DNA of 44,249 nt from Akkermansia muciniphila (GTDB taxonomy: Bacteria; Verrucomicrobiota; Verrucomicrobiia; Verrucomicrobiales; Akkermansiaceae). Shown one piece after another: positions 10,985 through 14,600 of the stretch (positions within the stretch are counted from its first letter, which is position 1; each line of letters opens with the position of its first letter). A program made the translations under genes and the position numbers. The stretch spans positions 1 through 44,249 of the forward strand of contig CAMAQB010000018.1 in NCBI GenBank assembly GCA_945860285.1. Direction: 5' to 3'. Under the pieces are notes generated by a model. The model saw nothing but the letters and a program-made list of their open reading frames with translations, was not told the origin of the DNA and searched no databases.

Positions 10985-12457
10985 CTACTCGGTTTTTTTC
11001 TTCAGTTGCGGAAAGAGCACCACGTCGCGGATTGTCGGCGCGCCGGTGAGCATCATGATCAGGCGGTCGATGCCGATGCCAATGCCACCCGCAGGCGGCA
11101 TGCCGTGTTCGAGCGTCTCGATGAATTCATAATCGACCTTCTGTTCCTCGCCGCCGGACTGGTGCTCCAGACGCTGACGCTGCACGTCGGGGTCGTTGAG
11201 TTCCGAATAGCCCGGCGAGATTTCCTGGCCATTGATGATCAATTCGTAGACCTCCACCGTTTTGCCACCGGGTGACACTTTCGCCAGCGGCACCAGTTCG
11301 GCGGCCATGCGGGTGACGAACACCGGATCGAAATTTTTCTCCTCGACCAGTTTTTCGAACACCTGCTGGATGACCTCGTGATCGACCATGCCTGCGGAAA
11401 TTTCCACGCCCAGTTCCTGGCAGCGCAGGCGGCGTTGTTCGGCGGTGATGGTAAAGAAATCGGCTCCGGCGGCGTCTTCGATCAACTCGCGATAACCGGC
11501 CCGTTTCCAGGGTCTTGTTAGATTGATGGTGCGGATCAGATTTCCCTCCTCGTCCTTGTGTTCGATGTGCAATCCGCCGCAAAATTTCTCCGCCAGCGTG
11601 CAGGTCAGTTCCTCGACGAGATCGGCCATTTCCTCGAAGTCCGAAAATGCCCAGTAGGCTTCCAGCATGGTGAACTCGGGATTGTGACGGCGCGAAATCC
11701 CCTCGTTGCGGAAATTGCGGTTGAGCTCGAAAATTTTCGTGAATCCGCCCACAAGCAGGCGTTTGAGGAAAAGTTCCGGAGCGATCCGCAAGGTAAGCGG
11801 CATTGCCAGCGCGTTGTGATAGGTTTCGAAAGGACGGGCCGCAGCGCCGCCCGCGACATCCTGCAACATCGGCGTCTCGACTTCAAGGAACCCCCGCTCC
11901 TGGAAAAAGCGGCGTATCTCCGCCACCATCAGGATCCGCTTCACAAAAATCGCCGCACTGTCCGGATTGCCCATCAGATCGAGATGTCGTTTGCGATACT
12001 TGATCTCGCGGTCGGCCACGCCATGCCACTTGTCGGGCATCGGCCGCAGCGACTTCGAAAGCACGGTGAAACTTTCGATCTTGACGGTCGGTTCGCCGGT
12101 GCGGGTGAGAAACGTTTCCCCTTCCACGCCGATCCAGTCGCCGCGATCAAGGCATTGCCAGGCCGCCGCGTCATTTTCCGACAGGGTCTTGAGTCCGAAG
12201 TAGCCTTGGATCGAACCGAGAACATCGCTCAACTGGAAAAACACCGATTTGCCCATGTCGCGCAGCGCGGTGATTCTGCCGGCAATTTTCACCTTGACTC
12301 CCTCGCTGAAATTTGTCTGCAGTTCGGCAGGGCTGGTGCTGATCACGAAGCGGGCGCCAAAGGGATCAATCCCCAGCTCCCGCAACCTGGCAAGCTTTGC
12401 GCGGCGAACAGCGATCAATTCAGCTTCGGTGGAGTGATGAGTGGTGTCTTCGGACAT
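10985..12457 (-). CDS. lysS: Lysyl-tRNA synthetase, class II
   Basis: This 490-residue enzyme charges tRNA-Lys with lysine. An OB-fold anticodon-binding domain is followed by the class II core. Motif 1 is FFQERGFLEVETPML, motif 2 FRNEGISRRHNPEFTMLEAYWA, and motif 3 GGIGIGIDRLIMMLTG near the C-terminus. I start at the ATG at 12457 (MSEDTTHHSTEAEL), which matches the family length. A TTG-initiated extension to 12544 is less likely. There is no Shine-Dalgarno sequence in front. It heads a minus-strand run of five closely spaced genes. Confidence 0.96.
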   Translation of the reverse strand: MSEDTTHHSTEAELIAVRRAKLARLRELGIDPFGARFVISTSPAELQTNFSEGVKVKIAGRITALRDMGKSVFFQLSDVLGSIQGYFGLKTLSENDAAAWQCLDRGDWIGVEGETFLTRTGEPTVKIESFTVLSKSLRPMPDKWHGVADREIKYRKRHLDLMGNPDSAAIFVKRILMVAEIRRFFQERGFLEVETPMLQDVAGGAAARPFETYHNALAMPLTLRIAPELFLKRLLVGGFTKIFELNRNFRNEGISRRHNPEFTMLEAYWAFSDFEEMADLVEELTCTLAEKFCGGLHIEHKDEEGNLIRTINLTRPWKRAGYRELIEDAAGADFFTITAEQRRLRCQELGVEISAGMVDHEVIQQVFEKLVEEKNFDPVFVTRMAAELVPLAKVSPGGKTVEVYELIINGQEISPGYSELNDPDVQRQRLEHQSGGEEQKVDYEFIETLEHGMPPAGGIGIGIDRLIMMLTGAPTIRDVVLFPQLKKKTE

Positions 12458-12630
12458 GGCAAGCACTGGCTTACGCGAGGACGCAGTCTTTGAAAACAGG
12501 GAAATGAAAACTTTTTCACAAATTTTAACTTTTCCTCTTGCCAAACTGAAAAATTCGGCTACCTCTTGTTCAGGCAGGTAACAGTTTCGTCACAATTACT
12601 TGCTTTCTTAATCATTTTTTTGGGGGTTGA

Positions 12631-12671
12631 AACCCTGTCGATAGTTCGCTGTCGGCAGGGTTTTTCTTTTT
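12631..12671 (+). terminator. Strong plus-strand terminator hairpin with a TTCG tetraloop
   Basis: AACCCTGTCGATAG pairs with CTGTCGGCAGGGTT over 14 bp (two G-T pairs) around TTCG, followed by TTTCTTTTT. The orientation with the long T-run is plus, yet no plus-strand gene ends nearby: lysS starts leftwards at 12457 and the YbjN-like gene ends leftwards at 12696. It could also serve the minus-strand gene weakly, since only three T follow on that side. The remainder of 12458-12695 holds no protein gene. Confidence 0.85.
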
Positions 12672-12695
12672 CCTGCGTGATCCACAGCCGCCAAC

Positions 12696-13211
12696 TCAAG
12701 GCAGGTCATCTTCGTCGCCCGGTACTGGCGGAATCAAATCATCCCTCTCCAGCAGCCGCTGCAGGTCGAGATCTTTCAGCAAGTCCCGCGGCGTGCGCTG
12801 GACAATCGCCGCGTAGGGAGTGATGCGGTCGAGTTCGGCAATCGCGCAATGCACCATCGAAGTGACAATGTCGGCATCGTAGCGCTCCTTTTCAAAAATG
12901 TTGGTGATCCGGAAAACCAGGAACTGGCGTTCGAGATCGAATTCGAAGCTTCCGAGGTTGAGGTACTTGTTAGCCCGGCACAGCAATTCCAGCACATAGG
13001 GGAGGTGCGCCGCCGAGAGCGCCAGCGGACATTCGCCGACCACGGCAAGGGCGTTGATCGGCGTGTACGACTGCGCGTGCAGTTGGATCTTGGTATGGTG
13101 CGCGGAAAAAGAGGCGCGCAACACGTCGCGGCCGTCGAGCAGCTCGCAGTGCCAGCCGTTGTTGCCGAAAGTGGATTCCACGGAGAGGATTTGCAGGGAT
13201 GGCGGACGCAT
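12696..13211 (-). CDS. YbjN-domain protein
   Basis: The 171-residue soluble protein matches the YbjN/type III secretion chaperone-like fold: VVGECPLALSAAHLPYVLELLCRANKYLNLGSFEFDLERQFLVFRITNIFE is the characteristic central region, with a final helix AIAELDRITPYAAIVQRTP. Family members are poorly understood and linked to stress and motility regulation. The acidic C-terminus (PVPGDEDDLP) is unusual. It starts 5 bp after the stop of the membrane-protein gene at 13217, so the two form an operon. Confidence 0.78.
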   Translation of the reverse strand: MRPPSLQILSVESTFGNNGWHCELLDGRDVLRASFSAHHTKIQLHAQSYTPINALAVVGECPLALSAAHLPYVLELLCRANKYLNLGSFEFDLERQFLVFRITNIFEKERYDADIVTSMVHCAIAELDRITPYAAIVQRTPRDLLKDLDLQRLLERDDLIPPVPGDEDDLP

Positions 13212-13216
13212 GAGGA

Positions 13217-13744
13217 TTAAGAGGATGGGATGTGGCGTTTGCTCATCAGCGTGCGGACGGCGTGATCGAGCAGCAATCGTTGGGCGGCGAGTATGGGCGA
13301 GAGCGACAGGATCACGCCAGAGGATTTTTCGGCATTGTAATGCAGCGACAAGCGCCTGGCAGCGAGATCCACATCGAGGTCGTGAACTTCATGCCAGGTG
13401 ACCAGCATCATGTGTTTCTCCGGTCGGAACAGCGGAAAAATCTCCAGACCCAGCGGCGTGAAAATCAGATAGGCGTGGCGGATGCAGCGAAATCCGTAGC
13501 GGATCAAGACCAGCGACACCGGCAGCGGCAGCAATGCGGTCCAGGCGTAGCCTTGCAGGCGCGGTGGCTCCATGTCCGTGCCCTGCGTGGCCAGGACCAG
13601 AAGTCCGAGCGACAGCGCCAGGAAAAATGCGGCGAGCACCAGCAACAAACGCCCCTGGGCTGCCCGGGTAAAACGGATTTCCTTCTCGGGAGAGCGGATT
13701 TTTTTCGGTGCGGCCATGCGGGAATCAATTTGTGAAGCCAGCAT
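13217..13744 (-). CDS. Small membrane protein with two helices and a soluble tail
   Basis: After a basic N-terminus, two hydrophobic helices (LLLVLAAFFLALSLGLLVLAT and WTALLPLPVSLVLIRYGF) are followed by a soluble domain of about 85 residues (YLIFTPLGLEIFPLFRPEKHMMLVTWHEVHDLDVDLAARRLSLHY). That layout resembles proteins with a bacterial PH-like membrane domain, which is only a suggestion. ATG codons at 13744 and 13717 are both possible; neither has a clear ribosome site. It precedes the YbjN-like gene by 5 bp. Confidence 0.7.
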   Translation of the reverse strand: MLASQIDSRMAAPKKIRSPEKEIRFTRAAQGRLLLVLAAFFLALSLGLLVLATQGTDMEPPRLQGYAWTALLPLPVSLVLIRYGFRCIRHAYLIFTPLGLEIFPLFRPEKHMMLVTWHEVHDLDVDLAARRLSLHYNAEKSSGVILSLSPILAAQRLLLDHAVRTLMSKRHIPSS

Positions 13745-13838
13745 GCCCGGAATCGCGTCACGGTCAATCGCGAAGCTCGTGCCGCATATTGTCCAAAAAT
13801 TTTCTTTCCCTGCCCCGGCAATCTGCGAGACCTAACGC

Positions 13839-14600
13839 ATGCATCGCATCGAAATCGCCCGCACACGCTTCCAACGTGTCGAGGTCTGGAAGTCCACGAT
13901 GCAGGTGGAATTCCGCGTTCAACAGGCCGTTCACGCCTGGTGGCATGCTCAGCGTTTCCTCACCGGCCTGGCGTGGGACAATCTGATCGCGGCTTCGCTG
14001 CTCCATCCTTCGGGGGCACCCGGATCGATTCTTATGCTCGGACTCGCCGGCGGCACCACCTTTCACGGACTGCGCCATTTGCTCCCCGATGCCCGGTTGA
14101 CTGCGGTCGATATCGACGGCGAAATCGTCGAACTGGCGCGAAAACACATGCACCTCAACGACCTGAACTGCGAGGTTCACATCGCCGATGCCTACGAATG
14201 GGTGAGGAACAGCACGCAGCGATTTGATGTCGTCATCGACGACGTCTATCTCGCCGGCACCAACGATGTGTTTCGTCCGGGAAACTGGGATGCCGCCGCA
14301 ATGGGGCAGTTGCAACAATTGCTCGCACCCGGAGGAATCCTGCTCACCAACCTGGTCCGCGGCACGGGTCACCGCGCACTGCAAAGCCGCATTCGCGGGC
14401 TGTTCCGCGACTCCTTTCCCTGCGTTCGCGAGGTCCGCACTCCGGCGGGACTCAACGAAACCTTGTGCGGCGGCGAAAAAATCCTGCCCGCTTCAGCACT
14501 GCGGTCGTGGCGGGAAAAATTCCGATCTTCCCGCGACCGCGACCTCTGGGATAGAATCACCGTGCGCTCCCTGCCGAACCGACAACCAAAACGATCATGA
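13839..14600 (+). CDS. Spermidine synthase-like SAM-dependent methyltransferase
   Basis: The 253 residues carry a Rossmann methyltransferase core. The glycine-rich loop is ILMLGLAGGTTFHGLRHLLP (about residues 64-83), then LTAVDIDGEIVELARKHM, then EVHIADAYEWV and FDVVIDDVYLAGT. This order and the DAY/VVIDD motifs are those of the spermidine synthase superfamily. The protein lacks convincing polyamine-site motifs, so it more likely modifies another substrate. Its stop overlaps the next ATG (ATGA), tying it to a second methyltransferase. Confidence 0.82.
   Translation: MHRIEIARTRFQRVEVWKSTMQVEFRVQQAVHAWWHAQRFLTGLAWDNLIAASLLHPSGAPGSILMLGLAGGTTFHGLRHLLPDARLTAVDIDGEIVELARKHMHLNDLNCEVHIADAYEWVRNSTQRFDVVIDDVYLAGTNDVFRPGNWDAAAMGQLQQLLAPGGILLTNLVRGTGHRALQSRIRGLFRDSFPCVREVRTPAGLNETLCGGEKILPASALRSWREKFRSSRDRDLWDRITVRSLPNRQPKRS

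Follow-up and report, generated by a model that had tools for sequence, protein, structure and literature searches.

A stand-alone hairpin with the features of a plus-strand intrinsic terminator next to lysS in a genome of Akkermansia muciniphila

Introduction

Upstream of lysS in a genome of Akkermansia muciniphila, a strong terminator-like hairpin lies on the plus strand between two minus-strand genes, with no plus-strand gene in front of it. Which transcript, if any, does such an orphan terminator end? The original prediction was that it closes a small RNA transcribed divergently from lysS. We examined this proposal in the stretch of 44,249 nucleotides that contains the locus (hereafter the window), from a genome of 3.7 Mb that is 98% complete. 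As an ordinary terminator the hairpin would matter little; if it were the true end of a real RNA, that RNA would exemplify a small RNA of recent origin in a host in which Hfq was not detected. The features of the locus are listed in Table 1.

Table 1. Features of the lysS upstream locus, in window coordinates
Feature	Position	Strand	Evidence
lysS, lysine--tRNA ligase	10985..12457	-	PF00152; TIGR00499 at 482.1 bits (cut-off 427.6)
lysS-proximal upstream region	12456..12512	-	Inner part aligns with six same-genus genomes compared
Segment peculiar to this genome among those compared, bearing the hairpin	12513..12695		Alignment and DNA search; absent in relatives G006 and G007
Best plus-strand promoter-like site (TTAACT-18-AAAAAT)	12525..12554	+	Score 7.9; 129/300 shuffles as good
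Weaker second hairpin upstream of the very likely terminator	12572..12605	+	12565-12612 at -10.6 kcal/mol, z = -3.4, 1/500 shuffles as good
Very likely terminator hairpin, 16 pairs, TTCG loop	12629..12664	+	-24.9 kcal/mol; 0/600 intergenic shuffles reach -20
U-tract (TCTTTTTCC) after the hairpin	12665..12673	+	Sequence
Gene without assigned function, 171 aa	12696..13211	-	No Pfam match, no NCBIfam match near cut-off

Results

The hairpin is strong and its U-tract lies on one strand only

The stem at 12629-12664 is formed by 16 consecutive standard pairs, 13 of them Watson-Crick and three G-U (one terminal and two internal); the original prediction was right in calling it strong and short of the mark in giving it 14 bp. 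The TTCG loop and the T-run described on the plus strand are both there: the loop is closed by a G-C pair, so that it does not have the cUUCGg form, and the stem ends in TTTT followed by TCTTTTT on the plus strand only. Folded as minus-strand RNA, the same hairpin reaches -15.0 kcal/mol, as against -24.9 kcal/mol for the plus strand, because the two internal G-U pairs turn into A-C mismatches, and the sequence that follows the stem in that direction, CAACCCCC, holds no U-tract.

Shuffled sequences confirm this stability, with z = -6.3 for the plus strand of 12622-12672 (0/500 shuffles as good) and z = -4.7 for the minus strand (1/500), so that even the minus-strand hairpin lies beyond its shuffles. 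Among 600 dinucleotide shuffles of 12456-12695, a plus-strand terminator-like hairpin appeared in 56 at -10 kcal/mol, in 10 at -15 and in none at -20 or below. A loose terminator scan of both strands of 11500-14000 listed three sites, against a shuffle mean of 3.6; the bare pattern is therefore unremarkable in this region, and it is the strength of the hairpin that is special. The locus combines a stable, GC-containing hairpin beyond chance with a U-tract directly after the stem, as in intrinsic terminators, which makes the hairpin a very likely intrinsic terminator of the plus strand. In a bidirectional terminator a U-tract follows the stem in either direction, whereas here it is present on the plus strand alone.

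Strong terminator-like hairpins without a same-strand gene upstream are not commonplace in this genome

The two genes flanking the hairpin, lysS and the 171-aa gene, are separated by 238 bases. The start of lysS is most likely the ATG at 12457; a TTG start at 12544 was rejected, since in the relative G007 a TGA stands in frame just ahead of the ATG. On the plus strand, the frames that start within 12513-12695 have TTG or GTG starts only, and a frame with an ATG start, 25 codons in length, begins at 12504.

We counted intergenic terminator-like hairpins in 444 kb of the genome (the window together with 20 further stretches, each of 20 kb), calling genes with a simple program of our own that can miss short ones, and dropped hairpins lying more than 30% inside a called gene or without called genes on both sides. 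At -18 kcal/mol or below there were eight, six of which had a same-strand gene upstream; the hairpin at 12629-12664 belongs to the two that had none, so that a strong orphan terminator is not commonplace here. At weaker thresholds the fraction without such a gene was 6/18 at -14 kcal/mol and 21/49 at -10, and these we take to be mostly chance hairpins. Elsewhere in the same genome, another strong terminator-like hairpin without a same-strand gene upstream was observed on the minus strand (L155:13359-13395, -24.5 kcal/mol, tail GTTTTTTCG); no Rfam family matched in L155 at its gathering score.

The bases in front of the hairpin resemble shuffles in promoter score and overall fold

The original prediction noted the motif TTGCCA and an AT-rich stretch ahead of the hairpin and judged the promoter to be weak. 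TTGCCA sits at 12538-12543, the G+C content of 12540-12630 is 39.6% against 57.3% for the window, and the best plus-strand promoter-like site was no better than those of shuffles. In its favour, only 3.4% of 267 mid-gene stretches attained its score, as against 27% of the 386 taken from in front of called genes; the stretches in these comparison sets were slightly shorter and not matched in A+T content. A consensus promoter scan listed no plus-strand site near the hairpin, hence none that uses TTGCCA. The weight matrix was of the E. coli type; transcription start mapping in A. muciniphila and three other species, in the cited part of PMC4782308, reports -35 and TATAAT-like elements, which makes such a scan a fair though rough test.

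As a whole, the upstream stretch 12540-12625 folds no better than chance on the plus strand (z = -0.9, 87/500 shuffles as good). Within it lies the second hairpin of Table 1, which on the minus strand gives -8.3 kcal/mol for 12565-12612 (z = -2.3, 12/500 shuffles as good). With the terminator hairpin included, 12540-12675 has z = -4.2 and -4.4 in two runs for the plus strand and -2.4 for the minus strand.

No Rfam family reached its cut-off around the hairpin, and in the whole window only two tRNAs attained the gathering score. Two low-scoring hits were rejected, namely the rnk_pseudo leader (RF01772) on the plus strand, with 19.3 bits against a gathering score of 55 (E = 0.98), and sR38 on the minus strand at 12694-12748, with 18.6 bits against 50 (E = 0.057). 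Hfq (PF17209) had no match in this 98% complete genome; five of 14 control genomes were matched.

The hairpin lies in a segment found whole in one genome only

We searched 12525-12690 as DNA against 260 genomes of the family, scoring up to three candidates per genome. Apart from the window's own genome, none matched the full segment: matches at E <= 0.001 were found in three genomes, two of them over 46-47 bases only. The lysS upstream sequence was also compared in nine of ten same-genus genomes, the window's own included (the match in the tenth ended at a contig edge), and an alignment of seven of these nine regions, again with the window, showed the last ~40-55 bases before lysS to be common to all. 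By eye, a homologue of the 171-aa gene lies directly upstream of lysS in G000, G006 and G007. The gap between the two genes is 91 bases in G007 and ~73 in G006 (the latter counted by eye), and no hairpin is present between them in either genome.

These comparisons go against the conservation of the ~90 bases upstream of the hairpin that had been put forward as a check on the small RNA. Nor did the converse outcome occur, in which conservation limited to the hairpin would have marked it as the terminator of the 171-aa gene: the hairpin itself is not conserved, and it has no U-tract in the direction of that gene.

On the lysS side of the segment, the bases of 12456-12512 (minus strand) align whatever lies further upstream and show no obvious sigma-70 promoter; they may act as a promoter or leader element of lysS.

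A partial likeness was seen in one other genome, G085, where 47 bases of L132:1501-1550, ~300 bases away from the end of a contig, resemble window positions 12579-12625 at 80%. The motif reads TTTCGTCA, followed by TTTCTTAATC and a T-run; searched as a pattern in the 260 genomes, it was present in two, one of them the window's own. Two other G085 contigs carry the more distant flank at their ends. A ribosomal RNA leader was considered and set aside; Rfam gave no match at that locus. The likeness is possibly due to chance.

A repeat or a mobile element was set aside as a source of the hairpin: its pattern occurs at one place only in its own genome, plasmids gave no match, and viral contigs held no exact match to two typed patterns. 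One 28-base match was obtained among phages (E = 0.06).

The gene next to the 171-aa gene changes frequently among relatives

A search for relatives of the 171-aa protein found 102, of which 80 were kept, with 56-87% identity, in Akkermansiaceae and related Verrucomicrobia. In 38 of these 80 loci the homologue and its next gene share a strand, in 36 the next gene is convergent, and in six none was called. Since the next genes differ in this way, the neighbourhood is often rearranged, and the loss of a convergent neighbour is plausible. Of the 74 loci in which a next gene had been called, three carried an antisense terminator-like hairpin of -12 kcal/mol or lower, none similar by eye to the one described here, and no relative was found in which a plus-strand gene ends at a similar hairpin; the 3' flank was inspected by eye in 12 of the 80 loci.

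Discussion

What the hairpin may do

We regard 12629-12664 as probably an ordinary plus-strand intrinsic terminator that stands alone in a lineage-specific segment of ~180 bases, probably left over from a rearrangement, and that would stop stray transcripts. RNA polymerase moving along the plus strand would arrive from the lysS side by antisense or divergent transcription; the hairpin would form in the RNA, and the polymerase would halt in the U-tract at ~12665-12673, before entering the 3' end of the 171-aa gene in antisense. Such a role would be one of passive insulation. As to origin, a rearrangement seems most likely: the hairpin may, for instance, have terminated a plus-strand gene that formerly converged with the 171-aa gene, rather than having closed a gene dedicated to a small RNA.

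The proposal of a small RNA survives in its terminator and gains little from the promoter, the upstream fold as a whole, the conservation or Rfam. In its more explicit form, this would be a young species-specific RNA of ~110-130 nt that starts near 12545-12565 and acts by base pairing, in which a linker rich in A and U and containing a U7 run would join a 5' hairpin (12572-12605) to the terminator. This layout is in its favour, as are the fold of 12540-12675, the 5' hairpin, which exceeds its shuffles, and the precedent of the IgR#2 locus of Sinorhizobium meliloti in the cited part of PMC2573895. The promoter-like site that 129/300 shuffles equal, the chance-like fold of 12540-12625 and the lack of an Hfq match in the 98% complete genome speak against it. 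Conserved structure or sequence is usual, though not obligatory, for a small RNA; the whole segment was found in just one of the 260 genomes, whereas IgR#2, according to the same part of the source, had matches in other species. Apart from the terminator, the arrangement of the parts and a single weak hairpin, little points to such an RNA, which has little independent support, and we consider it unlikely. About as unlikely is the full claim of a species-specific regulatory RNA of recent origin, ~110-130 nt long, divergent from lysS, within a lineage-specific segment and in an Akkermansiaceae host in which no Hfq was found.

Two readings would place the hairpin in a minus-strand transcript. It begins only 31 bases beyond the stop codon of the 171-aa gene, and its stem forms on the minus strand too, so it could serve that gene as a terminator or both directions as a bidirectional one; since the minus-strand stem is weakened by its mismatches and runs into CAACCCCC instead of a U-tract, we assign the hairpin to the plus strand as a terminator, and the homologues adjoining lysS in G006 and G007 do without any such hairpin, which makes this reading improbable. 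The position upstream of lysS would also suit a minus-strand regulatory leader (riboswitch or attenuator), and the minus strand of 12450-12695 folds beyond its shuffles (z = -2.9), a minus-strand ORF of 18 codons, three of them for lysine, begins at 12615, and a promoter-like site for that strand appears in the consensus scan at 12641-12614, within the hairpin region. The best weight-matrix site on that strand, at 12552-12522 (score 10.25; 23/300 shuffles as good), lies however between the hairpin and lysS, so that the hairpin would fall outside any transcript from it; moreover, no leader family in Rfam reached its cut-off, and the relatives inspected have no such segment ahead of lysS. We therefore hold a lysS leader to be very improbable.

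Comparison with known systems

The putative terminator resembles other Rho-independent terminators in its GC-containing stem, short loop, U-tract and intergenic position, and departs from the usual ones in lacking a same-strand gene upstream and in having a full-length match in just one of the genomes searched. Stems that lie near the 3' end of a gene and form on the other strand too are also found in the bidirectional terminators of Zymomonas mobilis (PMC7566282); those described in the cited part of that study are located between convergent genes, unlike the hairpin at 12629-12664, whose flanking genes are not convergent and whose U-tract is on the plus strand only.

A further likeness is with IgR#2 of S. 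meliloti, in which an orphan forward terminator lies between two reverse genes and which is listed with experimental evidence; 14 of 18 candidates picked there by several criteria were detected, and IgR#2 had its matches in related species (PMC2573895, in the part cited here). The present locus shares with IgR#2 an orphan terminator between two opposite-strand genes. It differs from the S. meliloti small RNAs with orphan terminators, as presented in that part of the study, in having neither a promoter-like site better than those of shuffles nor conservation and in being known from sequence alone.
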